Origin: Paenarthrobacter sp. JL.01a
GTDB lineage: Bacteria; Actinomycetota; Actinomycetes; Actinomycetales; Micrococcaceae
Direction: 5' to 3'
DNA: 64,000 nt
NCBI RefSeq assembly: GCF_025452095.1
Contig: NZ_CP104877.1
Coordinates: forward strand, 434,001-498,000
Shown: one piece after another, positions 1,782 through 19,229 of the stretch
Layout: each line of letters begins with the position of its first letter
How positions within the stretch are numbered: position 1 is the first letter of the stretch
Notes under the pieces: generated by a model
What the model was told of the DNA's origin: nothing
The model's database searches: none
What the model saw: only the letters and a program-made list of their open reading frames with translations
Position numbers and translations under genes: made by a program

Positions 1782-2999
1782 CTAGTTCTTCACATAGCCG
1801 TTCGGGTTCAGTACGAACTTTGTTGCCGCGCCGGCGTCGAACTCAGCGTACCCGCGCGGTGCGTCTTCGAGCGGGATGGCTGTTGCGTTGACGGCCTTGG
1901 CGATCTGGACCTTGTCGTGGAGGATCGCCATCATGAGTTGGCGGTTGTAATTCATGACCGGGCATTGTCCGGTGGTGAACGACAGGGACTTGGCCCAGCC
2001 GGTGCCCAGGGACAGCGAGAGGGATCCGTGCTTGGCGGCTTCGTCGATTCCGCCCGGATCGCCCGTGACGTAGAGGCCGGGGATGCCCAGGGCGCCACCG
2101 GCTGCAGTGATGTCCATCAGGGAGTTCAGCACGGTGGCCGGGGCCTCATGCGAAGCGTCCTTGCCGTGTCCACGTGCTTCGAAGCCCACGGCGTCAACGC
2201 CGCAGTCCACTTCGGGCACGCCGAGGAGCTGCTCGATCTGGTCCTTGGGATCGCCCTGCGAAACGTTGACGGTTTCGCAACCGAAGGACCGTGCCTGGGC
2301 CAGGCGGTCTTCGTTCATGTCGCCCACAATCACGACGGCGGCCCCCAACAGTTGGGCGCCGACGGCGGCGGCGATACCCACGGGACCGGCTCCTGCAACG
2401 TACACGGTGGAACCGACTCCGACGCCGGCGGTGACGGCGCCATGGAAGCCGGTGGGGAAGATGTCCGAGAGCATGGTCAGGTCCATGATCTTCTCAAGGG
2501 CCTGGTCGCGGTCCGGGAAGCGCAGGAGGTTCCAGTCAGCGTAGGGGACCAGGACGTATTCTGCCTGGCCGCCCACCCAGCCGCCCATGTCCACGTAGCC
2601 ATAGGCACTTCCGGGACGGTCGGGGTTGACGTTGAGGCAGATGCCGGTCTTCTGCTCCTTGCAGTTTCGGCAGCGTCCACAGGAGATGTTGAACGGCACC
2701 GAGACGATGTCACCGACTTTGATGAATTCGACGTCGGGTCCCACCTCCACTACTTCGCCGGTGATTTCGTGGCCGAGCACCAGGTTCTTGGGCGCGGTGG
2801 TGCGCCCGCGGACCATGTGCTGGTCAGAACCACAGATGTTGGTGGTGACTGTCCGCAGAATGACACCGTGCGGGACTTTCCTGCCGACGTTGGCAGGGTT
2901 GACGCCGGGCCCATCCTTGAGCTCAAACGTTGGGTAGTCGGTGTCGATGATTTCGACGACACCGGGTTCCTTGTAGGCGACTGCTTTGTTTCCTGACAT
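1782..2999 (-). CDS. fdhA: Glutathione-independent formaldehyde dehydrogenase (zinc, NAD)
   Basis: 405 residues, close to the Pseudomonas putida-type formaldehyde dismutase/dehydrogenase (about 400). It belongs to the zinc medium-chain dehydrogenases. Catalytic zinc region: ICGSDQH with Cys56 and GHE at 76-78. Structural zinc cysteines: 107, 110, 113 and 121 (CGRCRNCKEQKTGIC). Rossmann motif GAGPVG at 203-208 with Asp227 for NAD. The start ATG at 2999 has an AGGGAG ribosome site. It should oxidise free formaldehyde released by betaine and dimethylglycine demethylation to formate, which the product of the upstream gene would oxidise further. A formaldehyde dismutase activity is the main alternative. 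Confidence 0.93.
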   Translation of the reverse strand: MSGNKAVAYKEPGVVEIIDTDYPTFELKDGPGVNPANVGRKVPHGVILRTVTTNICGSDQHMVRGRTTAPKNLVLGHEITGEVVEVGPDVEFIKVGDIVSVPFNISCGRCRNCKEQKTGICLNVNPDRPGSAYGYVDMGGWVGGQAEYVLVPYADWNLLRFPDRDQALEKIMDLTMLSDIFPTGFHGAVTAGVGVGSTVYVAGAGPVGIAAAVGAQLLGAAVVIVGDMNEDRLAQARSFGCETVNVSQGDPKDQIEQLLGVPEVDCGVDAVGFEARGHGKDASHEAPATVLNSLMDITAAGGALGIPGLYVTGDPGGIDEAAKHGSLSLSLGTGWAKSLSFTTGQCPVMNYNRQLMMAILHDKVQIAKAVNATAIPLEDAPRGYAEFDAGAATKFVLNPNGYVKN

Positions 3000-3039
3000 G
3001 GTTACTCCCTGTTCCTTGCTGTTGTTGAACTGCCCGCCC

Positions 3040-3116
3040 AACGGTCCGAAAGCGGTGCTTCGATGAGAAATACCTCCCCAGGTTTCAGGACACCGAAGCA
3101 CCATTCACGGACCGTT
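3040..3116. repeat. Long interrupted inverted repeat in the fdhF-fdhA leader
   Basis: Arms at 3040-3062 and 3094-3116 pair as 9 + 9 bases. AACGGTCCG pairs with CGGACCGTT and GGTGCTTCG pairs with CGAAGCACC; they are separated by a symmetric 5-by-5 mismatch (aaagc opposite attca). The loop is 31 nt. It fills most of the 159-bp gap upstream of fdhA and ends about 40 bases before the fdhA start codon. Confidence 0.7.
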
Positions 3117-3158: not shown

Positions 3159-5477
3159 TCAGGCCCTCTCCAGCCGGATGATCACGGATTTCGAGGTAGG
3201 CGTGCCGCTGGTGTCAGCGACAGAGTCCAGGGGCACCAGGACGTTGGTCTCGGGGTAGTACGCAGCGGCGCAGCCCTTCGGCGTCGAGTACGACACGATG
3301 CGGAAGTCCTCGGCCCGGCGATCGATCCCCTGGAATTCGGAGATCAGGTGGACCATGTCTCCATCGGCAAATCCGAGTTCCTGGATGTCCTCGGCGTTGA
3401 TGAGCACCACACGCCGGCCACCGTGGATTCCCCGGTAGCGGTCGTCCTTGCCATAGATGGTGGTGTTGTACTGGTCGTGGGAGCGCAGGGTCTGAAGGAC
3501 CAGCCTGCCGGGCGGGACCTTTATGTACTCAAGCTCATTGCCGGTGAAGTGGGCCTTCCCGGAGGCGGTGTGGAACTTCCTGGCGTCGCGCGGGGGATGC
3601 GGCAGTACGAAGCCGCCGGGGTGCTGGATCCGGGCCTCGAAATCCTCGAAGCCGTCAAACACCGCCTCGATGTGTTTCCTGATCAGCGTGTAGTCGTCCC
3701 TCATGGCCAACCAGGAGGCTTTGGGGGTGTTGGGCAGGCGACGGTGGCCGTCGGTGAACAGCTTGTCGGCGAGGTTGCAGACGATCGCGACTTCAGAGTG
3801 GAGGTGCTCACTGGCGGGCTTGAGCCTGCCGCGGGAAGCGTGCACCGCACTCATGGAGTCCTCAACGGTGACCCGCTGGTCGCCCGTGCGCTGGGCATCC
3901 TTTTCGGTTCGGCCGAGGGTCGGCAGGATCAACGCGCGACGGCCCGTGGACAGGTGTGAGTGGTTGAGCTTGGTGGAGATCTGCACCGTCAACCGGGTGT
4001 TGGCAAGGGCCTGTTCGGTAACCTCCGAATCAGGGGCCGCCCGGACGAAGTTGCCGCCCATTCCCATGAAGAAGCGGACGTTTCCGTCCCGCATTGCACG
4101 GATGGCGGCCACGGTGTCAAAGCCGTGTTCCCGGGGTGAGCGGAACTCGAATTCCTGATCCAGACGGTCGTGGAAGGTTTCCGGCATCTTCTCGAAGATA
4201 CCCATGGTGCGGTCGCCTTGGACGTTGGAGTGGCCGCGCACCGGACACACGCCGGCACCGGGCTTTCCGATGTTGCCTTGGAGCAGCAGCACATTCACAA
4301 CATCCCTGAGCGTGGGGACGGAGTGCTTGTGCTGGGTCAGTCCCATGGCCCAGCACACGATCGTGGTATTGGAGGCCAGAAGGCGTTCGCCGGTCGCGTG
4401 CAGCTGCTCGAGTGTGAGTCCGGTGGCTTCGACGATGTCGTCCCACTCCACCTTCTCCAGGTAGCGCAGGTATTCGTCGATGCCCACTGTGTGGTCATTG
4501 ATGAAGGCGTGGTCCAGCACGGCCTCCAGGCCGGGAGTTGCCCGGCCCTCGGTTTCGGCCTCCAGCAGGTATTTGCCCAGGCCCTGGAACAGGGCTTGGT
4601 CCCCGCCGGCGCGGATCTGCAGGAAGTCGTCGGTGAGCCTGATGCCGGAAACTACGCCCTGGACGTGCTGCGGGTTCTCAAAGTGGAGGAGCCCGGCCTC
4701 GGGAAGCGGGTTGACGGAGACAATGACCGCCCCGTTTTTCTTGGCCTTTTCCAGCGCGCTGAGCATCCGGGGGTGGTTGGTACCGGGGTTCTGTCCTGCC
4801 ACAAAGATCAACGACGCCGTTTCAAGGTCGGTCAGGCTGACGGAACCTTTTCCGATGCCTATGGTCTCCACCAGGGCGGAGCCGGAGGACTCATGGCACA
4901 TGTTGGAGCAATCCGGCAGGTTGTTCGTGCCGAGGCCACGGACCAGGAGCTGGTAGACAAAAGCGGCTTCGTTGGAGGTCCGGCCCGAGGTGTAGAACAC
5001 GGCCTGGTCAGGGCTTTCCAAGCTGCGCAGTTCCTCAGCCATCAGCTCGTAGGCTGCGTCCCATTCGATCGGGGTGTAATGGGTGGCGCCTTCTTCCAAG
5101 ACCATGGGGTGGGTCAGGCGTCCCTGCTGTCCCAGCCAGTAGTCGTCGCGGGTTTTCAGCTCTGCGACGGAGTACTTGGCGAAGAATTCGGGAGTGACGC
5201 GTCGGCGGGTGGCTTCCTCCGCGACGGCTTTGGCCCCGTTCTCGCAGAACTCCGCGGCGTTGCGCTTTTCATGCTCGGGCCAGGCACAGCCCATGCAGTC
5301 GAAACCGTCCAGCTGGTTCACGGCGAGCAGGGTCTGAACGCTGCGCACCGGACCCATCTGTTCCAGGGAGATCTTCAGCGCGTTGGCAACAGCCGGGATG
5401 CCCACGGCCTTGGTCTTGGGTTTGGTGACGGTCAGCTTTGACTCGTCGATGTTTCCGTCGGGGGCTTTCGTAGCCAT
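3159..5477 (-). CDS. FdhF/YdeP-family molybdopterin oxidoreductase, probable formate oxidase
   Basis: 772 residues of the formate-dehydrogenase-alpha-like family. The likely Mo ligand is Cys194 in SNMCHESSG. The N-terminal region has Cys61, Cys64 (CMGC) and Cys78 but not the clear four-cysteine pattern of a 4Fe-4S formate dehydrogenase, as in YdeP-type relatives. The C-terminal third carries the molybdopterin-guanine-dinucleotide-binding fold (LVLQTLRSHDQYNTT, HGGRRVVLINAEDIQELGFADGD). It lies 11 bp after folD and two genes upstream of moeA. In context the substrate is most likely formate from PurU and FdhA. No beta or gamma subunit and no fdhD is present, so the electron acceptor is unknown. 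Confidence 0.87.
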   Translation of the reverse strand: MATKAPDGNIDESKLTVTKPKTKAVGIPAVANALKISLEQMGPVRSVQTLLAVNQLDGFDCMGCAWPEHEKRNAAEFCENGAKAVAEEATRRRVTPEFFAKYSVAELKTRDDYWLGQQGRLTHPMVLEEGATHYTPIEWDAAYELMAEELRSLESPDQAVFYTSGRTSNEAAFVYQLLVRGLGTNNLPDCSNMCHESSGSALVETIGIGKGSVSLTDLETASLIFVAGQNPGTNHPRMLSALEKAKKNGAVIVSVNPLPEAGLLHFENPQHVQGVVSGIRLTDDFLQIRAGGDQALFQGLGKYLLEAETEGRATPGLEAVLDHAFINDHTVGIDEYLRYLEKVEWDDIVEATGLTLEQLHATGERLLASNTTIVCWAMGLTQHKHSVPTLRDVVNVLLLQGNIGKPGAGVCPVRGHSNVQGDRTMGIFEKMPETFHDRLDQEFEFRSPREHGFDTVAAIRAMRDGNVRFFMGMGGNFVRAAPDSEVTEQALANTRLTVQISTKLNHSHLSTGRRALILPTLGRTEKDAQRTGDQRVTVEDSMSAVHASRGRLKPASEHLHSEVAIVCNLADKLFTDGHRRLPNTPKASWLAMRDDYTLIRKHIEAVFDGFEDFEARIQHPGGFVLPHPPRDARKFHTASGKAHFTGNELEYIKVPPGRLVLQTLRSHDQYNTTIYGKDDRYRGIHGGRRVVLINAEDIQELGFADGDMVHLISEFQGIDRRAEDFRIVSYSTPKGCAAAYYPETNVLVPLDSVADTSGTPTSKSVIIRLERA

Positions 5478-5488
5478 GCGGTTTCCCT

Positions 5489-6376
5489 TCAGATCCGGGC
5501 TGCGGAAGCGGCAGCGGCCAGTTGGGCGGGTTCCTGCCGGCTCGCAGCCTCGACAGTGTGCAGGAGCAACAGGGCGGTGGTGACTGAACCAACGCCGCCG
5601 GGAACCGGCGTAAGTGCGGCGGCGACTCCGGTGACGCTGGCTTCGTCAACGTCCCCCACCAGTGAGCCGTCGGGCAGGACGTTGGTTCCGACGTCGACCA
5701 CTACAGTCTCCGGCGAGAGGTGCCCTCCCTTCAGCAGCCCGGCCCTGCCGACGGCAACCACCACGACGTCGGCGGGCTGGGTGTAGCGTTCCAGCGGCCC
5801 CGACTTGGAATGGCAGATGGTGACGGTGGCGTCCCGCTCCAGAAGGAGCAAGGACAGCGGCTTGCCCACCACTGCTGAACGCCCGACGACGGTCACGTTG
5901 CGTCCCGCTACCGGCACCTCAAAGTGATCCAAAAGCTCGACGACGGCCCGTGCTGTTGCGGGGGCAAAGGCCGGTTGCCCGACGGCCAGGCGGCCGAGGC
6001 TGAGGGGGTTGGCGCCGTCGATGTCCTTTTCGGGGGCGATGAGACCCACCACGGAATCCGTCTTCACCCCGGCAGGCAGGGGAGTCTGGAGGATGATGCC
6101 GTGGACCGAAGACTCCACGCTGAGGTCGCTGAGGACCGAGGCCAGGACCTGCTCCGTGGCGTCGTGGCCAAGATCCACGATCCTGCAACCGATGCCGGCC
6201 CGTTCGGCGGCGCGTTCGATGGACCGGACGTACCAGAGAGTCGACTCATCGTCCGTGGCCACCACAACGGCCAGGACGGGGTGGCGTCCGCTGCTTTCGA
6301 GGGCGCGGGCCTGTTCCTGGGCGCGTTGCTTGATCAAGCCCGCCAGCGGCTTTCCGGACAGCACTTCTGCGCTCAT
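5489..6376 (-). CDS. folD: FolD-type methylenetetrahydrofolate dehydrogenase, catalytic Lys of cyclohydrolase replaced by Ile
   Basis: 295 residues, full FolD length. The NADP-binding and folate motifs are intact: ILQTPLP, DIDGANPLSLGRLAVG, VVGRSAVVGKPLSLLLL and PVPGGVGSVTTALLL. The motif around the conserved lysine (E. coli Tyr50/Lys54) reads WYVRSIERA, giving Tyr49 but Ile53 at the lysine position. That lysine is required for the cyclohydrolase step in studied FolD/MTHFD1 enzymes, while dehydrogenase activity can survive its loss. This protein is therefore probably a dehydrogenase only. Its start overlaps the stop of the FchA-like cyclohydrolase gene by ATGA, so the two are translationally coupled. 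Confidence 0.93.
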   Translation of the reverse strand: MSAEVLSGKPLAGLIKQRAQEQARALESSGRHPVLAVVVATDDESTLWYVRSIERAAERAGIGCRIVDLGHDATEQVLASVLSDLSVESSVHGIILQTPLPAGVKTDSVVGLIAPEKDIDGANPLSLGRLAVGQPAFAPATARAVVELLDHFEVPVAGRNVTVVGRSAVVGKPLSLLLLERDATVTICHSKSGPLERYTQPADVVVVAVGRAGLLKGGHLSPETVVVDVGTNVLPDGSLVGDVDEASVTGVAAALTPVPGGVGSVTTALLLLHTVEAASRQEPAQLAAAASAARI

Positions 6377-6999
6377 GCGAGGATCCTTTCGCGGACGCGG
6401 CGGGACAGGGTGTCAGCGGACAGGACAACTTTCTCTTCCAGCCCGTCGGTCTGCCCGGCAAGTCCGGTCCGGACAGCATCGTCCTTGATGGCAACGAGGT
6501 TGATGTCGATGTTGATCCGCGCGGTAGTGGCAGCCGCCCGGGCCGCGTCAGCGGCAGCAGCGACGTCGCTGATGACGTTGGGGTTGGCGGCGCCAAAAAG
6601 TTCGGCAGCGAGGTCCACGATGTCGCCGGCAACCCTGATGAGCTGGGCCGGTGTTTGTGCGGCCTGGACCAAGGCAGCGTCGATCGCCGCCTTCTTCGCG
6701 GCCTTGAGCTCAGCGGTGTCGGAAGGAAGTTTGTAGGAGTCGATGACGCCCTGGAAGGCCTGCTCATCGGCGTCGGCAAGGCCCAAAGCCTCCGCTACCA
6801 GCCGGTCGGCTGCGCTGGTGATACGGGCGACCAGTCCTTCATGCTCTGCGTACTTTTCGCCGGTGGTGTACCGGGCAACCATGGCAACCAGTGCTGCACC
6901 CTGGGCTGCATGCAACGCCGCCGCCGCTCCGCCGCCTGGTGTGGGTTGGCGGGCGGCGAGCCTGGCCAGATAATCGTTGACTGTTTCTGAACTGATCAT
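6373..6999 (-). CDS. fchA: Cyclodeaminase/cyclohydrolase family protein, probable methenyl-THF cyclohydrolase
   Basis: 208 residues, the size I recall for Methylobacterium Fch of the same family (FTCD_C). Signature sequences are PTPGGGAAAALHAAQGAALVAMV near residues 19-41 and NPNVISDVAAAADAARAAA further on. The start is MISSETVNDY, where a GGAAG ribosome site precedes the ATG; an upstream in-frame ATG is less convincing. It would hydrolyse 5,10-methenyl-THF to 10-formyl-THF, the step FolD next door probably cannot catalyse. Formimino-THF cyclodeaminase (histidine or purine degradation) is the alternative, but no such genes are nearby. Confidence 0.88.
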   Translation of the reverse strand: MISSETVNDYLARLAARQPTPGGGAAAALHAAQGAALVAMVARYTTGEKYAEHEGLVARITSAADRLVAEALGLADADEQAFQGVIDSYKLPSDTAELKAAKKAAIDAALVQAAQTPAQLIRVAGDIVDLAAELFGAANPNVISDVAAAADAARAAATTARINIDINLVAIKDDAVRTGLAGQTDGLEEKVVLSADTLSRRVRERILA

Positions 7000-7115: not shown

Positions 7116-9653
<2,538 letters not shown>

Positions 9654-10571
9654 TTAGCGGAAGACGACGGTGCTGGTCTGGTCCAGCAGGACGCGGTGTT
9701 CGCAGTGCCAGCGGACGGCTCGGGACAGGGCGAGGGCTTCCGCGTCCTGGCCGACGGTGGAAAGGGCCGTGGGGCCGTAGCTGTGGTCCACGCGGATGAC
9801 TTCCTGCTCGATGATCGGGCCCTCGTCCAGGTCTGCCGTCACGTAGTGGGCCGTTGCGCCTACCTGCTTCACGCCGCGGTCATAGGCCTGGTGGTAGGGG
9901 CGTGCGCCCTTGAAGCCGGGAAGGAAGGAGTGGTGGATGTTGATGGCGCGGCCTTCGAGCTTGCGGCAGAGGTCGTCCGAGAGGACCTGCATGTAGCGGG
10001 CCAGGACCACCAGGTCCGCCTGGTATTCGTCAACCAGGTCCAGGAGCTTCTGCTCTGCCTCGGCCTTGGTGTCCGGGGTGACCGGAACGTGGATGAAGGG
10101 CAGCCCGGCAGCCTCTGCCATGGCGCGGTGGGTCTCGTGGTTGGAAACCACGGCCACCAGTTCGCCGCCGAGGCTTCCGCCGCGCCAGCGGAAGATGAGG
10201 TCGTTGAGGCAGTGCCCGAACTTGGAGACCATCACCAGGACTCGTGGCTTGGTCTCGTCGTGGAAGCTGAACTTCATGTCGAAGCGTTCTGCGATCGAAG
10301 CGAACTCGTCCTCCAGCCGCTCCGGGGAGGAGCTCTGGGAACCTGAAAATGCGGTGCGCAGGTGCAGCGTCTGGCGCAGGCTGTCGTCAAACTGCTGGTG
10401 TTCTTCGATGTTGAAGCCGCGTTCGAAGAGGAAGGTGGTGACTGCCTGCACGATGCCCGGCTGTTCGACGCACGACAATGTGAGTACGAACTTCTGCGCC
10501 TGCTCGCCGTTGAGCTGGCCGCGTTCAGCTGGAAGAGTGCTGAGGTGTGAGTCTGAAGCCACGAGGGTCAT
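9654..10571 (-). CDS. purU: Formyltetrahydrofolate deformylase
   Basis: 305 residues. An ACT domain (FVLTLSCVEQPGIVQAVTTFLFERGFNI) precedes a formyltransferase fold with INIHHSFLPGFKGARPYHQAYDRGVKQVGATAHYV and DLDEGPIIEQEV, the usual Asn-His-Asp active-site region. It hydrolyses 10-formyl-THF to formate and THF, recycling THF for dimethylglycine oxidase. The start ATG has a strong AAGGAGG site. It is the first gene of the long minus-strand C1 train and is divergent from gntR. The N-terminus is about 25 residues longer than the ACT domain needs, but the ribosome site supports this start. Confidence 0.96.
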   Translation of the reverse strand: MTLVASDSHLSTLPAERGQLNGEQAQKFVLTLSCVEQPGIVQAVTTFLFERGFNIEEHQQFDDSLRQTLHLRTAFSGSQSSSPERLEDEFASIAERFDMKFSFHDETKPRVLVMVSKFGHCLNDLIFRWRGGSLGGELVAVVSNHETHRAMAEAAGLPFIHVPVTPDTKAEAEQKLLDLVDEYQADLVVLARYMQVLSDDLCRKLEGRAINIHHSFLPGFKGARPYHQAYDRGVKQVGATAHYVTADLDEGPIIEQEVIRVDHSYGPTALSTVGQDAEALALSRAVRWHCEHRVLLDQTSTVVFR

Positions 10572-10591: not shown

Positions 10592-10649
10592 CCTAGATAT
10601 ATTCCTAGGATATGAACTGATATATTAGGATTGGAAATCAGCGTATACT
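10592..10649. promoter_or_regulatory. Divergent purU/gntR control region with two ATAT-centred dyads
   Basis: Dyad 1 is 10592-10609 (CCTAG-N2-ATAT-N2-CTAGG). Dyad 2 is 10617-10628 (CTGATATATTAG, two mismatched positions). A good -10 hexamer TATACT for gntR is at 10644-10649, so dyad 2 lies at its -35 position. The reverse complement of dyad 2 contains CTAATATATCA, which recurs at the pdxS promoter. These are candidate sites for the adjacent GntR protein. Confidence 0.6.
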
Positions 10650-10702
10650 GGTGTCCCGGGCAGGTCAATAGATTTCCCGGGTTTGAAGAAGGAGTTGGCG
10701 CT

Positions 10703-11383
10703 GTGGCTACTGGAACTCTTGCGAACATCGGCGATGCCACCAGGAAATCCCTGGCTGACGTGGCTTATGAACGGTTGCGCGACCGACTCCTGATGCTTGA
10801 TATCAAGCCCGGCGACATCCTCAATGACGATCAGCTTGCCAAGGAACTGGAGGTCGGGCGGACGCCTGTCCGCGAGGCACTGAAGCGCTTGGAACTCGAT
10901 CGTCTGGTCATTACCTATCCGCGGCGCGGAACGTTCGCCACCCGGGTTGAAGTGACGGACCTGGCCTTTATCTCCGAAATCCGGGCCCAACTCGAGCCGC
11001 TCGCGGCGGCCCGGGCCGCGCGGGTCGCTTCTGCCGCCACCCGGGAGCAGTTGCGGGGTGTCATGCGGGCGGTGGAGGGCTTTGACGTCAAAGCCGCCTC
11101 AGTTGTGGAGACCTTGCGCCTGGATGCCAGCGTTCACCAGGGCATCTACGCTGCGGCTGCGAACCCTCACCTCGAGGACATCCTTATCCGCTACGACAAC
11201 CTGGCTACGCGTATCTGGTGCATGGTGCTGGATCGCTTGCCGAACCTCGAACACCATGTGCGCGAGCACCTCGACCTGCTGCGTGCAGTCATCGACGGCA
11301 ATGAAGAAGAGGCCGCGGAGCTTGCCCGGGTCCACGTCAGCGGATTCGAGCAGGCGGTTCGTCAGGCGCTGTTCGCGGCCTAG
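10703..11383 (+). CDS. GntR family regulator, FCD subfamily
   Basis: 227 residues from the GTG at 10703, chosen for the GAAGAAGGAG ribosome site eight bases upstream; a longer in-frame ATG start overlaps the promoter. The N-terminal GntR winged helix (about 15-80) includes DVAYERLRDRLLMLDIKPGD and ELEVGRTPVREALKRLELDRLV. A helical FCD ligand domain follows, with Asp and His candidates for metal/acid binding (LRLDASVHQGI, HHVREHLDLLRAV). It is divergent from purU and upstream of pdxS, both of which have matching ATAT-rich sites. It may sense a glycine/C1 intermediate; this is inferred from position only. Confidence 0.9.
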   Translation: MATGTLANIGDATRKSLADVAYERLRDRLLMLDIKPGDILNDDQLAKELEVGRTPVREALKRLELDRLVITYPRRGTFATRVEVTDLAFISEIRAQLEPLAAARAARVASAATREQLRGVMRAVEGFDVKAASVVETLRLDASVHQGIYAAAANPHLEDILIRYDNLATRIWCMVLDRLPNLEHHVREHLDLLRAVIDGNEEEAAELARVHVSGFEQAVRQALFAA

Positions 11384-12713: not shown

Positions 12714-13646
12714 TCAGGCCTCGTCTTCCGGCCTGGCAGTGAGGATGCGTTGGGCCCTCTTCTGCAGGATTTCCAATGACTCCTTAATAAGGGGCGAAGC
12801 GATGCTGCCCCTGCGTACGGCCGCCACGATGCGGCGGGCCGGTTTTCCTTTGCCGGTTATGCGCAACCGGACCACATTTTCGGCGTTGTGCAGCGGCGCC
12901 AACCGCGGCAGCAGGCCGACGCCGAGCCCTGCCCCTACGAAGGCGATCTGGGTTTCCCACTCAACGGCCTCGTGAGCGATCCGTGGTGTCACGCCGACGG
13001 CGGTGAAGGCCGCGGTGAACAGCGAGTGGTAAGTAGACCCTGCGGCCTCCGTGATCCAAGGCTCCGACGCCAACTCTTCAAGCGTCACGGTTTGGCGTGC
13101 TGCCAAGGGGTGGTCTCCGGGAATGATGACATCCAAGGGATCGTCCAGGAGGACCGTTTGTTCGAAGCGGGGGTCGTCTTCGCCGTATGTGTCGGACTGC
13201 ATGGCAACTATGACGGCGAGGTCAATGCGCTCTGCCACCAGCAAGTCGAAGCACCGTGACGGATTTGCCTCCAGAACCTGCACCTCCAAATGAGGGCGGC
13301 TGGCGCGCAGCGTAGCGGCGAGGGGCGCGAGCAACTGGGCCGCCGCCGTCGAGAATCCACCCAGGCCGAAATGCGACTGCACCTGGTCGCCGGCTTCCAT
13401 GGCCGCTGCCCGCAGGCTCTCCCATTCGGCGATCAGGCTGTCTGAACCGTTGACCAGAAAGCGTCCCGTGGCCGTCAGCCGCACGCCCCGGCCGTCCTTG
13501 GTGAGCAGCTGCATTCCCAGCACGCGCTGGAGTTCACGAAGCTGCGCGGAGACGGCGGAAGGGGAATATCCCGTGAGTTCGGCTGTGGCCCCAACAGTGC
13601 CGCAGCGGGCGAACACGCGCAGGGTAATCAGCCTCTGATCGATCAT
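12714..13646 (-). CDS. LysR family transcriptional regulator
   Basis: 310 residues. The N-terminal winged helix is IDQRLITLRVFARCGTVGATAELTGYSPSAVSAQLRELQRVLGMQLL (about 2-48), followed by a LysR substrate domain (LDVIIPGDHPLAAR, FVGAGLGVGLLPRLAPL). MIDQRL is chosen as start because the extra five upstream residues lack family similarity. It is divergent from gbcA with a TGCAC-N5-GTGCA dyad between them, so it is the best candidate activator of gbcAB. The inducer (betaine or dimethylglycine) is inferred. Pseudomonas uses an AraC-type regulator, GbdR, for the same job. Confidence 0.92.
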   Translation of the reverse strand: MIDQRLITLRVFARCGTVGATAELTGYSPSAVSAQLRELQRVLGMQLLTKDGRGVRLTATGRFLVNGSDSLIAEWESLRAAAMEAGDQVQSHFGLGGFSTAAAQLLAPLAATLRASRPHLEVQVLEANPSRCFDLLVAERIDLAVIVAMQSDTYGEDDPRFEQTVLLDDPLDVIIPGDHPLAARQTVTLEELASEPWITEAAGSTYHSLFTAAFTAVGVTPRIAHEAVEWETQIAFVGAGLGVGLLPRLAPLHNAENVVRLRITGKGKPARRIVAAVRRGSIASPLIKESLEILQKRAQRILTARPEDEA

Positions 13647-13656
13647 GGGACCATCA

Positions 13657-13671
13657 TGCACCCAAAGTGCA
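13657..13671. promoter_or_regulatory. LysR-type dyad upstream of gbcA
   Basis: TGCAC-CCAAA-GTGCA is a perfect 5-bp-arm dyad 10 bp from the LysR start codon and about 145 bp from gbcA. It suits autoregulation and activation of the divergent operon. Confidence 0.5.
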
Positions 13672-13815
13672 GGGTTATCTCCTAAATATTGCGCTTTTGT
13701 TGCAGTTCAATCGTCCCTAATCTCTTACTACGAAGACTTCGATAACGCCGCTTGCGACGATGCATCCGCGGTCCCCAAGAATCAGACATTTACCCAGCCT
13801 CCCGGGAGGAAACCC

Positions 13816-15120
13816 ATGACTGCTCAAGTGAACGCGCCCCTGAATTCACGCGGAAAACTCGCCTCGACATTGCCTGCGGAGCAGCTGGCCGAGATCAGCG
13901 CACTGTTCGAGTTCCGGCGCACCGGCTACTCCCTCGACGCCCCCTTCTACACGGACCCCACGATCTTCAAGATCGACATGGAAGCCATCTTCGGCCAGCA
14001 CTGGATCTTCGCCGGAAGCGTTGCCGAACTGCCGGAGCCGGGAGACTACATCACGGTGGACTACGGCCCGTACTCGCTGATCGTCCTCCGCAACGACGAC
14101 GGCGACGTCAACGTCCTGCACAACGTATGCCGCCACCGCGGTGCCCGCGTCCTTACCGAAGCCGCCGGTTCCACCGGAAACCTGGTCTGTGGCTACCACT
14201 CCTGGACCTACTCGCCGGAAGGCAACCTGATCCACGCTTCCGCCCCGGGAGAAGCCAAGTTCGACAAGAACTGCTTCGCCCTCAAGCGCGCCCACAGCCG
14301 TGAGGTTGCCGGCCTCATCTTTGTCTGCATCGCGGACGAGCCACCCACCGACTTCGACGAGACCTCCAAGATCTTCGAGCCCTACCTGGCACCCCACGAT
14401 CTCGCCAAGACGAAGATTGCCTACCAGCAAAACATCATCGAAGAGGGCAACTGGAAGCTCGTCATGGAGAACAACCGTGAGTGCTACCACTGTGACGGGC
14501 ACCCGGAGCTCGCTTGTTCCCTCTTCCCCACCTGGGGCCTGACCGAGGGACTCATCCCGACCCACCTTGAAGAGGTGTGGGACCGCAACAAGGAAGCCCA
14601 GTCCTCCCTGGAAGAGCGCTGCCGCCGCTACGGCCTTCCTTACGAGGTGGTCGAGGAGCTCGATACCCGCATCGCCGGAATCCGTATCTCGCGCGAATCC
14701 CTGGACGGCGAGGGCGAATCGTTCTCCGCCGATGGCCGCCGCCTTTCCAAGAAGCTGCTGGGCGACCTGCCCGACTTCCGCCTCGGCCGTTGCTCGATGC
14801 ACCTGCAGCCCAACAGCTGGTTCCACTTCCTGGGAGACCACGTCATCACCTTCGGCGTCTTCCCCATCAACGAACACCAGTCCCTGGTCCGCACCACCTG
14901 GCTCGTTGCCGATGACGCAGTTGAAGGCGTGGACTACGACCTCGACAAGCTCACCTACACCTGGAAGCAGACCAACATCCAGGACAAGGCATTCGTCGAA
15001 CTGTGCCAGACCGGCGCGGGCAGCCCTGCCTACGAGCCCGGCCCCTACATGAAGAGCGAATACCAGGTTGAGGCCTTCATCAACTGGTACGTGCAGCGCG
15101 TGCAGGAGCACTTGGCATGA
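13816..15120 (+). CDS. gbcA: Glycine betaine demethylase oxygenase subunit (Rieske)
   Basis: 434 residues from ATG 13816, which has a strong GGGAGGAAA site; longer in-frame starts run into the promoter. The Rieske 2Fe-2S ligands are Cys105, His107, Cys125 and His128 (CRHRG, CGYHSW). The mononuclear iron site is in NRECYHCDGHPEL with His225 and His229. Residues 30-75 and the C-terminus match GbcA/stachydrine-type oxygenases. It converts glycine betaine to dimethylglycine and formaldehyde using electrons from GbcB. Its stop overlaps the gbcB start by ATGA. Carnitine or stachydrine are alternative substrates, but the adjacent dmg train favours betaine. Confidence 0.92.
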   Translation: MTAQVNAPLNSRGKLASTLPAEQLAEISALFEFRRTGYSLDAPFYTDPTIFKIDMEAIFGQHWIFAGSVAELPEPGDYITVDYGPYSLIVLRNDDGDVNVLHNVCRHRGARVLTEAAGSTGNLVCGYHSWTYSPEGNLIHASAPGEAKFDKNCFALKRAHSREVAGLIFVCIADEPPTDFDETSKIFEPYLAPHDLAKTKIAYQQNIIEEGNWKLVMENNRECYHCDGHPELACSLFPTWGLTEGLIPTHLEEVWDRNKEAQSSLEERCRRYGLPYEVVEELDTRIAGIRISRESLDGEGESFSADGRRLSKKLLGDLPDFRLGRCSMHLQPNSWFHFLGDHVITFGVFPINEHQSLVRTTWLVADDAVEGVDYDLDKLTYTWKQTNIQDKAFVELCQTGAGSPAYEPGPYMKSEYQVEAFINWYVQRVQEHLA

Positions 15121-16535
15121 TTGAACTCCTCACTGAAACGGCCATTCAGGAGCCACAGCGGATCCGCGGCCTTGAGATGCCATGGAACCGGGTCATGGGC
15201 AGCACCGAGGCACCCGCCCGCGCTGCCCGCGCCCTGGGCCCGTGGCACCCGCAGGAGTTCATGGCCGAGTGCGTGGAAACCGTACCCGAAGCAGGCGGGC
15301 TCATGACGTTCGTGTTCCGCCGCTGCGACGGAGCTCCCCTTGCGTTCCGTGCAGGGCAGTACGTCAACATCGCCTTCCCAGTGAACGGCGAGGACCAGGA
15401 CCCGGTGGACCGCAGCTACTCGCTGTCCAGCTCGCCCACTGAACCCTGGACCTTCAGCATCAGCGTCAAGCGCGACGCCGGCGGCCTGGTGTCGCCGTGG
15501 GTACATGAGAACGTCAAGCCCGGTACGGTCCTGGAGATGCTCGGGCCGGTGGGAGCCTTCCACCTGCCCGACGCCGACCGGCGCGCGCGGTACCTCCTGC
15601 TGGCTGCCGGCGCGGGCATTACGCCCATCATGTCCATGGTGCGGACCATCCACTCACTGCCCGGGCATGCCGACGTCGTAGTCCTCTACCACGGGGCGGA
15701 GGCAGGCGGCTTCGCCTTCCACCGCGAGCTGGCCTACATCGCCTCCGTGGATTCGCGGATCCGGGTGTTCTACTCCCTGGGTGACCGCAACAAGCCCGAA
15801 GATTGGGAAGGTCTCAGCGGCCGCCTGACCTCAGCCATGATCGATGAAGTGGCCCCCGACGCCAACGGACGACAGGTGTACGCCTGCGGTCCCGAGGGCT
15901 ACCTGAACACGGCCGCGGAGCTCCTGAAAAAGGTGGGAGTGGACGACACCTCCATCTACATGGAGTTCTTCACGGGTGACCGCCAGACTCTCCTCGAATA
16001 CGCAGCCGAAGTGGCCCTGGCCGCAGACATCGCAGAGGAAATTGCCGAGGAAATCGCCGACTCGGCGGAGGACTACTTCGAAAGCCAGCCCGCGGCTTTC
16101 GGGCTGTACGAGCCCGGCTACGACGCCGACGGAACCTTGGAAGCCACAGGACTGCCGCTCGAAGCGCTCGACGCCGAACCGTCAGGTTCCGCTGCCGACG
16201 CCGGCCCGGTCGCCTCGCCGGAGCCAGAGGCCGCAACTCCTGATGCCTCGAGTTTCGACACCGTGGGAACAGGCAGCCTCACCCTTTCCTTCCTGCGCAC
16301 CGGCGTTAATGTGCGGATCGACCCCAGCGAGCACATCCTGGAGGTGGCCCAGCGGGCCGGCGTCCGGATCGGTGCCAACTGCAAGGAAGGGATGTGCGGG
16401 TCCTGCAAGGTGGTCAAGCTGTCAGGCGAGGTTGAGATGAACCACCAAGGCGGTATCCGGAAAAGGGAAATCGACGCCGGCAAGTTCCTGCCGTGCTGCT
16501 CCACGGCAACCACGGACATGGTGATCGACGCCTAA
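15117..16535 (+). CDS. gbcB: Glycine betaine demethylase reductase with C-terminal ferredoxin
   Basis: 472 residues. The FAD domain includes RSYS (99-102); the NAD domain includes LLLAAGAGITPIMSMV (about 160-175) and YACGPEGYL (255-262). The C-terminal plant-type ferredoxin (about 386-472) has Cys422, Cys427, Cys430 and Cys460. Between them lies a segment of about 95 residues (290-385) rich in Glu, Asp, Ala and Pro (AEEIAEEIADSAEDYFE), longer than I expect for GbcB (about 366 residues in Pseudomonas). It passes electrons from NAD(P)H to the GbcA Rieske centre. It is translationally coupled to gbcA. Confidence 0.92.
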   Translation: MIELLTETAIQEPQRIRGLEMPWNRVMGSTEAPARAARALGPWHPQEFMAECVETVPEAGGLMTFVFRRCDGAPLAFRAGQYVNIAFPVNGEDQDPVDRSYSLSSSPTEPWTFSISVKRDAGGLVSPWVHENVKPGTVLEMLGPVGAFHLPDADRRARYLLLAAGAGITPIMSMVRTIHSLPGHADVVVLYHGAEAGGFAFHRELAYIASVDSRIRVFYSLGDRNKPEDWEGLSGRLTSAMIDEVAPDANGRQVYACGPEGYLNTAAELLKKVGVDDTSIYMEFFTGDRQTLLEYAAEVALAADIAEEIAEEIADSAEDYFESQPAAFGLYEPGYDADGTLEATGLPLEALDAEPSGSAADAGPVASPEPEAATPDASSFDTVGTGSLTLSFLRTGVNVRIDPSEHILEVAQRAGVRIGANCKEGMCGSCKVVKLSGEVEMNHQGGIRKREIDAGKFLPCCSTATTDMVIDA

Positions 16536-17964: not shown

Positions 17965-18555
17965 GTGCACGTCATCGCAGAACAAACGGCAACCTCGAGT
18001 GACAGCGTCGCCGGCAACTCGTCCCTGATCCTCGATGAGCTTGCCCGCATCGCTTCCGGCCTGGACTTCGGACAGCTCGCACGACTTGCGGACAAAGTCA
18101 GCGGAGCCGAACGGGTCTTCCTGGCAGGCGCGGGCCGGAGTGGGCTTGTGCTTCGCATGGCGGCGATGCGGCTGATGCACCTGGGCTTGACGGTCCACGT
18201 GGCAGGCGACACCACAACCCCCGCCATCACAGAAGGTGACCTGCTGCTGGTGGCCTCGGGTTCCGGGACCACGTCCGGGGTGGTCAAAGCAGCCGAGACC
18301 GCACTCGCGGCCGGGGCCGGGGTAGCTGCAGTGACCACCAACCCCTCGTCCGCCCTGGCAGGGCTGGCCGATGCGCTTGTGGTTATTCCGGCTGCGCAAA
18401 AGACCGACCACGGTTCGGCTGTCTCGCGGCAATACTCCGGCAGCCTCTTTGAACAGTCCCTTTTCCTGGTGACCGAGTCGGTTTTCCAAACCCTCTGGGA
18501 AGCCACGGCCGAGCCGGCCGAGAAGCTTTGGTTGCGTCATGCCAACCTCGAGTAA
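17965..18555 (+). CDS. hxlB: 6-phospho-3-hexuloisomerase
   Basis: 196 residues from a GTG start with AAAGGAGTG upstream. A single SIS domain carries VFLAGAGRSGLVLRMAAMRLMHLG, LLLVASGSGTTSGVV and VVIPAAQKTDHGSAVSRQYSGSLFEQSLF. It isomerises hexulose 6-phosphate to fructose 6-phosphate, the second step of ribulose-monophosphate formaldehyde fixation. hxlA follows 50 bp downstream. The pair lies beside gbcAB, whose reaction releases formaldehyde. Gene order is phi then hps. Confidence 0.93.
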   Translation: MHVIAEQTATSSDSVAGNSSLILDELARIASGLDFGQLARLADKVSGAERVFLAGAGRSGLVLRMAAMRLMHLGLTVHVAGDTTTPAITEGDLLLVASGSGTTSGVVKAAETALAAGAGVAAVTTNPSSALAGLADALVVIPAAQKTDHGSAVSRQYSGSLFEQSLFLVTESVFQTLWEATAEPAEKLWLRHANLE

Positions 18556-18605
18556 GCGCCCTTGATCTTTCCCCCAAGCCACACCACAAAAGAAAGTAGA
18601 ACACC

Positions 18606-19229
18606 ATGAAACTGCAGGTTGCACTGGATCTCCTGACCATCGACGATGCCCTGGAACTGGCCGGCAAGGTGGCCGAGCACGTGGACATCATCGAGCTGGG
18701 GACGCCCCTGATCAAGGCTGAGGGCCTGGCCGCCGTCACTGCCATCAAGGAAGCCCACCCCGGCAAGATCGTGTTCGCGGACATGAAGACCATGGACGCC
18801 GGTGAACTCGAAGCGGACATCGCCTTCAAGGCCGGCGCCGATCTGGTCTCTGTCCTGGGAACTGCTGACGACTCCACGATTGCCGGTGCGGTCAAGGCTG
18901 CACAATCCCACAACAAGGGCATCGTGGTGGACCTGATCGGCGTGGCCGACAAGGTTTACCGTGCCAAGGAAGCCAGGGCGCTGGGGGCCAAGTTCATCGA
19001 ATTCCATGCCGGCCTGGACGAGCAAGCACAGCCGGGATACGACCTTCGCGGACTCCTCAACGCCGGGGAAGAAGCCCGCGTGCCGTTCTCCGTTGCCGGT
19101 GGCGTCAACGCATCCACCATTCCCGCGGTGCAGTTGGCCGGAGCCGACGTAGCTGTAGCAGGCAGTGCGATTTACGGTGCCTCGGATCCGGAGCTGGCAG
19201 CAAAGGAACTCAAGGCCGCCATCCAGTAA
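18606..19229 (+). CDS. hxlA: 3-hexulose-6-phosphate synthase
   Basis: 207 residues, the normal length for the orotidine-decarboxylase superfamily enzyme. The metal/catalytic motif is FADMKTMDAGE with Asp59, Lys61 and Asp64; other conserved parts are LQVALDLL, IELGTPLIKAEG and FSVAGGVNASTIP. It condenses formaldehyde with ribulose 5-phosphate to give hexulose 6-phosphate. With hxlB it provides a formaldehyde sink besides FdhA and the THF route. The ribosome site is weak (AAAGAAAG), so it may depend on coupling to hxlB. Confidence 0.95.
   Translation: MKLQVALDLLTIDDALELAGKVAEHVDIIELGTPLIKAEGLAAVTAIKEAHPGKIVFADMKTMDAGELEADIAFKAGADLVSVLGTADDSTIAGAVKAAQSHNKGIVVDLIGVADKVYRAKEARALGAKFIEFHAGLDEQAQPGYDLRGLLNAGEEARVPFSVAGGVNASTIPAVQLAGADVAVAGSAIYGASDPELAAKELKAAIQ

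Follow-up and report, generated by a model that had tools for sequence, protein, structure and literature searches.

In Methylobacterium, the dehydrogenase and the cyclohydrolase of tetrahydrofolate (THF)-linked C1 metabolism are two proteins, MtdA and Fch; Fch is of the FchA kind and MtdA is not known to belong to the FolD family. The locus analyzed here resembles this system in its two-protein split of C1 reactions, but its dehydrogenase is instead a FolD. Aluri et al. are said to have described in 2016 a FolD-family protein of Clostridium perfringens that is only a dehydrogenase and a separate FchA that acts as the cyclohydrolase; this would be the same split, but in another phylum and an anaerobic organism, where it reportedly occurs together with formate–THF ligase (Fhs). 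Yeast MTD1 is presumably a single-function member of the same superfamily without a linked FchA; it is eukaryotic and distant in sequence from our FolD (1edz, E = 0.00027). It is mentioned in PMC11064299.

The closest described locus is a C1 cluster of Arthrobacter sp. 31Y, reported in 2015, which contains an additional FolD (sharing 32% identity with the first) and a non-homologous methenyl-THF cyclohydrolase along with PurU, formaldehyde dehydrogenase, an aminomethyltransferase and a molybdenum oxidoreductase, and which its authors call unique (PMC5023230). Judging by this description, it is apparently the same cluster as the one analyzed here; its description does not, as far as we could see, mention the catalytic lysine of FolD, a single origin or the spread of the pair. 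For Arthrobacter, Meskys et al. reported a dmg region in 2001 (as cited in PMC3534580), and in the pAO1 nicotine operon the folate-dependent demethylating oxidase MABO, FolD and PurU are found together (PMC6214936). The split into FolD and FchA and the Arthrobacter cluster themselves have therefore been reported; what is new, as far as our searches of open PMC papers show, is that the lysine loss is conserved, arose once and is linked with an adjacent FchA, and that some lineages have no other FolD.

We analyzed a stretch of 64,000 nucleotides of the soil actinobacterium Paenarthrobacter sp. JL.01a (the window). The genes of interest are encoded on the minus strand in the transcription order PurU, a formyl-THF deformylase (9654–10571; TIGR00655, 324 bits, above the cut-off); a dimethylglycine-oxidase-type protein with an FAD oxidase and a GcvT-like folate domain (7116–9608; DAO, FAO_M, GCV_T and GCV_T_C), whose putative name is based on family knowledge and on PMC3534580; FchA (6373–6999); FolD (5489–6376); a molybdopterin oxidoreductase of the FdhF/YdeP family, a candidate for formate oxidation (3159–5477; TIGR01701, 948.8 bits, above the cut-off); a glutathione-independent formaldehyde dehydrogenase (1782–3104; TIGR02819, 750.2 bits, above the cut-off); and a MoeA-type molybdenum cofactor protein (424–1752; MoeA_N, MoCF_biosynth and MoeA_C). 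A divergent GntR/FCD regulator on the plus strand (10631–11383; PF00392 and PF07729) may, from its position, control the cluster, whose genes are presumably co-transcribed. A scan for promoters and terminators yielded no matches above the chance level. The stop codon of FchA and the start codon of FolD overlap in ATGA (6376–6373), as the initial annotation had stated for the cyclodeaminase/cyclohydrolase-family gene preceding FolD; the overlap suggests translational coupling, and spacing of this type is the commonest (63 of 90 forward-oriented FchA–FolD pairs, as measured from the FolD alignment start to the FchA stop).

FolD (295 aa) matches both domains of its family, PF00763 with 91.7 bits (gathering threshold 32.8) and PF02882 with 185.9 bits (gathering threshold 27). 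No Pfam domains other than those of the FolD family were found up to an E-value of 0.001, so the predicted dehydrogenase of this pair is a FolD and not a member of the MtdA family. In the alignment with FolD of E. coli MG1655, the catalytic Lys54 corresponds to Ile53 (codon ATC, 6218–6220, minus strand) and Tyr50 to Tyr49 (codon TAC, 6230–6232, minus strand), both codons being also visible by eye; Gln98 and Asp121 are kept as Gln97 and Asp120, and Leu99 is replaced by Thr98. The initial annotation had thus read the motif correctly, with the lysine replaced and the tyrosine retained. Its claim that the lysine is needed for the cyclohydrolase while the dehydrogenase can persist agrees with data for E. 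coli FolD K54N, which retains about 19% of the dehydrogenase and has undetectable cyclohydrolase activity (PMC5688156). Among the best 25 of 30 NCBIfam bifunctional-FolD models, none reached its cut-off (the top score was 263.2 bits vs. 421 for the subfamily model NF010786), although this is a weak test, as a large share of the models seem to be tailored to particular lineages and the comparison covered the Ile53 copy only.

Isoleucine occupies this position in all 65 relatives from named genomes, which excludes a sequencing error; two of the relatives (L067 and L069) are frame-broken copies. The two Arthrobacter Hiyo assemblies (L030 and L069) show frame breaks in several cluster genes, which are likely sequencing errors. 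The dN/dS ratios calculated against five relatives are 0.10–0.16 for FolD, 0.10–0.21 for FchA and 0.02–0.09 for the dimethylglycine oxidase encoded with them. Purifying selection thus acts on both FolD and FchA, though less strongly than on the oxidase; the FolD ratios, well below one, make decay of FolD unlikely.

The genome of the window (one contig, 100% complete) encodes Fhs and two FolDs. A search for a second folD, a canonical one, identified it at G000:C1:1271796; it keeps the lysine in the motif YVGGK, follows a gene that reads by eye as serine hydroxymethyltransferase, and shares 36% identity with the Ile53 copy. Besides FchA, this genome encodes one more FTCD_C protein, a solitary one of 257 aa that is weakly FchA-like (L004, 1348–2121; 59.1 bits).

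FchA (208 aa, from the ATG at 6999 to 6373 including the stop, minus strand) matches PF04961 with 170.7 bits against a threshold of 24.5 and is predicted to be a 5,10-methenyl-THF cyclohydrolase. It scores 139.2 bits against the NCBIfam equivalog NF045657, below the cut-off of 275, and we therefore keep the label "FchA-type". In profile comparisons the nearest structure is the methenyltetrahydrofolate cyclohydrolase 7vg4 (182.7 bits), followed by the cyclodeaminase entries 1o5h (114.3) and 1tt9 (113.1). The PGGG motif and Asn139, Asp145, Asn163 and Asn167 are kept in at least 98% of 105 FolD-adjacent FchA matches, a few of which are one gene counted in overlapping loci.

Among the 65 relatives, FchA lies immediately upstream of FolD in 64 loci, and 59 have PurU and the dimethylglycine oxidase in front of the pair, the others being L018 (at a contig end), L042, L060, L064, L065 and L068. 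At L060, the exception to the first count, there is a weak match with 33% identity. The lysine-less FolD at this locus of Arthrobacter sp. UNC362MFTsu5.1 (8001–8837) is an extra copy that lacks an intact FchA; the complete cluster surrounds the other copy of the same organism (L049). Further FolDs were sought in the genomes belonging to 43 of the 65 loci: 42 have at least two, and all 30 further copies that were read keep the lysine. The exception (G296, Candidatus Saccharimonadales) has a single FolD, which is lysine-less and lies beside FchA. In this 0.8-Mb genome the gene (L068, 8001–8822) looks acquired, and misassignment of the contig is possible. A trait common to the phylum Saccharimonadota was rejected, as FTCD_C was found in this genome only, out of 192, which makes a single acquisition likelier.

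The wider sample was taken almost wholly from Actinomycetes, with E. coli folD as the one chromosomal gene from Firmicutes and Proteobacteria, and ORFs in high-GC loci were called by GC3 scoring. In the class-wide sample of 296 genomes, FolD was found in 291 and FTCD_C in 52. Forty of the 59 FTCD_C places were read; 32 have an adjacent FolD, which carries isoleucine (30) or leucine (2) and never lysine. The remaining eight comprise five loci (L070–L072, L080 and L082) where FTCD_C is just 34–38% identical to our FchA, two (L092 and L104) with FolD elsewhere in the genome, and one contig end (L107).

A pool of 200 distinct FolDs contains 108 lysine-less ones (Ile or Leu), 99 of them adjacent to FchA, and 92 lysine-bearing ones, none of them adjacent. 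Here, FchA counts as adjacent if its match lies no more than 300 bases away and on the same strand as FolD; adjacency was visible within the retrieved flanks, mostly 1.5 kb for the lysine-bearing loci, and the pool includes the E. coli protein and two distant paralogues. These paralogues (L156 in G232 and L157 in G101) are very divergent FolD-like proteins whose PF00763 scores are 42 and 38 bits. One of the alignments places histidine and alanine of L157 at the active-site tyrosine and lysine positions, so that its lysine call depends on the alignment. The nine lysine-less FolDs without an adjoining FchA are L060, L139–L145 and L205: L144 and L145 come from genomes with FchA elsewhere, and L139–L143 from genomes without FchA that also have a lysine-bearing FolD. 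L205 (9001–9882) follows an amino acid permease gene on the Paenarthrobacter plasmid pYJN5-2, typed as conjugative. A search of a plasmid collection gave no sign that plasmids bring FchA to other phyla: the four records with a match are all actinobacterial.

Among the genomes whose FolDs were read, six with FTCD_C (G020, G024, G042, G043, G061 and G090; seven further genomes with weaker FTCD_C matches are outside this count) show only lysine-bearing FolD. In five of these, FTCD_C is 34–38% identical to our FchA and lies away from FolD; the G090 protein shares 47% identity with it and is encoded at a contig end. Hence an FTCD_C gene alone does not predict lysine loss, and adjacency does. In G090 (C186, 7686–9832), an FTCD_C gene directly adjoins Fhs on the same strand; the sole FolD found in that genome keeps the lysine. 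The only annotated lysine-less relative that we encountered is labeled bifunctional, an annotation against which one residue and a neighboring FchA would predict.

The lysine-less FolDs form one clade with a single state change (bootstrap 100 and SH-aLRT 99 with 97 rows in a careful analysis; SH-aLRT 99 with 129 rows in a quick one). In this sample, the lysine was lost once, anciently and before the dmg operon arose. The suggestion that the change from lysine to isoleucine might be specific to dmg-linked copies was not upheld, as lysine-less FolDs are widespread beyond this operon and the change is older. As the loss is one event, the association of 99 to 0 does not represent 99 independent cases, and the support stems from gene content across lineages and not from repeated losses. 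The unlinked lysine-less FolDs are nested among the FchA-linked ones, which fits an ancestral pair separated later; the lysine was probably lost in an actinobacterial FolD already paired with FchA. The loss is accompanied by the replacement of Leu99 by threonine in 107 of 108 sequences (alanine in L021). In aligned rows, the lysine-less proteins have PATA or PATS vs. PCTP in six of seven lysine-bearing ones, and GPVT or GSVT vs. GPMT, again in six of seven. The active-site tyrosine, glutamine and aspartate, the GGVG loop and the nucleotide-binding glycines are conserved across the aligned rows of the clade; two members of the FchA-less group outside that alignment (L141 and L143) have phenylalanine at the tyrosine position.

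In ten actinobacterial genomes (G017, G056, G072, G142, G172, G260, G284, G249, G031 and G107), the lysine-less FolD is the only FolD. They belong to three families that are apart in the tree (f24, f46 and f10), and nine are at least 92% complete (87% for G260). All ten have PurH, which implies that they need 10-formyl-THF, and all ten have FchA, which in G031 and G107 lies apart from FolD; none has Fhs above the cut-off (G172 has a sub-threshold match). In the five examined genomes where a lysine-less FolD occurs and FchA is absent (G038, G088, G100, G111 and G132, with L139–L143), there is always a lysine-bearing FolD as well. In 18 genomes searched from two genera of this group, the profile of our FchA had no match and each genome has at least two FolDs; the lysine-less FolDs of this group may be drifting or may have acquired a different function. 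Counter-examples were sought among 15 FchA-less genomes whose only FolD scores weakly against PF00763, and all 15 keep the lysine. The proposal that a bifunctional enzyme was split into a dehydrogenase-only FolD and a cyclohydrolase, with FchA predicted to supply the missing step, thus gains support from linkage (99 of 108 vs. none of 92) and from the gene contents of these ten and five genomes.

The lysine loss as a consequence of a dissimilatory role was considered and rejected. Five of the genomes carrying a lysine-less FolD locus contain, in addition, a cluster of PurU, a demethylase and FolD of the MABO–FolD–PurU layout (L212–L215 and L218), and there the lysine is kept and FchA is missing; a function in a demethylation pathway alone does not, therefore, remove the lysine. 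It is also kept in L216, L220 and L221, where PurU lies beside FolD with weak oxidase matches.

The retained tyrosine, glutamine and aspartate could mean that the lysine-less FolD is still bifunctional, with another residue (for example, the threonine after Gln98) replacing the lysine and FchA adding capacity; the nearly universal change of Leu99 to threonine and the five genomes that retain such a FolD without any FchA are in line with this. We consider it unlikely, as those five genomes also own a lysine-bearing FolD, the ten with a sole lysine-less FolD all have FchA, and threonine is poorly able to do the chemistry of lysine; moreover, E. coli FolD K54N has lost detectable cyclohydrolase activity (PMC5688156). 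A FolD without either activity, retained in a structural or regulatory role, could explain the divergence from the canonical copy (36% identity) and the faster evolution compared to the oxidase of the operon, but it is the least probable reading of all, given the conservation of the catalytic residues, the GGVG loop and the nucleotide-binding glycines, the purifying selection and the ten genomes where this is the sole FolD.

The loss might also have been selected by a carolacton-like inhibitor of FolD, FchA permitting it or repairing it later, since in E. coli selection for carolacton resistance yields K54 mutants, whose remaining dehydrogenase activity does not respond to the compound (PMC5688156). 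This is very unlikely, as there was one ancient event with no repeated losses, and 42 of 43 carrier genomes have another FolD, presumably inhibitor-sensitive because it is lysine-bearing in the 30 read. Still more doubtful is a role of the FchA-like protein as a formimino-THF cyclodeaminase, or in some other function, formyl-THF being formed by spontaneous hydrolysis. Its score below the NCBIfam FchA cut-off and the Pfam family shared with cyclodeaminase would allow this, but among proteins of solved structure a cyclohydrolase is its closer relative, ahead of the cyclodeaminases, it is tied to FolD, and the formiminotransferase domain PF07837 was absent from all 20 genomes searched, including that of the window, while being detected in the Thermotoga maritima control; we therefore disfavor a cyclodeaminase.

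The sequence evidence makes it very likely that the pair consists of a dehydrogenase-only FolD and FchA as a separate cyclohydrolase, which Micrococcaceae recruited into an operon for the oxidation of dimethylglycine to CO2. In this operon, the dimethylglycine oxidase would provide 5,10-methylene-THF, which FolD would oxidize to 5,10-methenyl-THF, probably with NADP+; its GRS and CHS motifs resemble those of human MTHFD1, which uses NADP+. As the catalytic lysine is gone, we propose that FolD no longer hydrolyzes methenyl-THF; FchA would convert it to 10-formyl-THF, PurU would release formate and THF, and the molybdopterin enzyme would oxidize formate to CO2. With flux in this direction, the operon would be a complete THF-linked route by which the methyl group of dimethylglycine reaches CO2 independently of the lysine-bearing FolD of the genome, and suggests dedicated enzymes for this route in Micrococcaceae. 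The pair need not be essential here, because Fhs and a canonical FolD are present. FchA may also speed up its step rather than be essential, since the E. coli K54N strain survives, which its authors credit to spontaneous hydrolysis of methenyl-THF (PMC5688156).

On the broader scale, we think it likely that one ancient lysine loss gave rise to FolDs that act only as dehydrogenases and are tied to FchA, a family now widespread in actinobacteria, and that the pair later became the only FolD system in several lineages, displacing the bifunctional FolD in at least three separate actinobacterial ones. There, it would be the only route to 10-formyl-THF that was found, perhaps also in the one Saccharimonadota genome. 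If so, cells of these lineages should be unable, or barely able, to do without either gene, and carolacton-type inhibitors should naturally have no effect on their FolD; the genomes with a sole lysine-less FolD, for which an insensitive FolD and an important FchA are predicted, are natural experiments on why both reactions usually share one protein.

Two further gene groups lie on the plus strand of the window. A Rieske oxygenase and its reductase (13645–16535) have as best NCBIfam matches GbcA and GbcB (glycine betaine monooxygenase), both below the cut-off, and such proteins would supply dimethylglycine for the operon. HxlB and HxlA, the formaldehyde-fixation pair of the RuMP pathway (17965–19229), are both above the NCBIfam cut-offs. 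Together, these genes fit the breakdown of glycine betaine with formaldehyde as a by-product.
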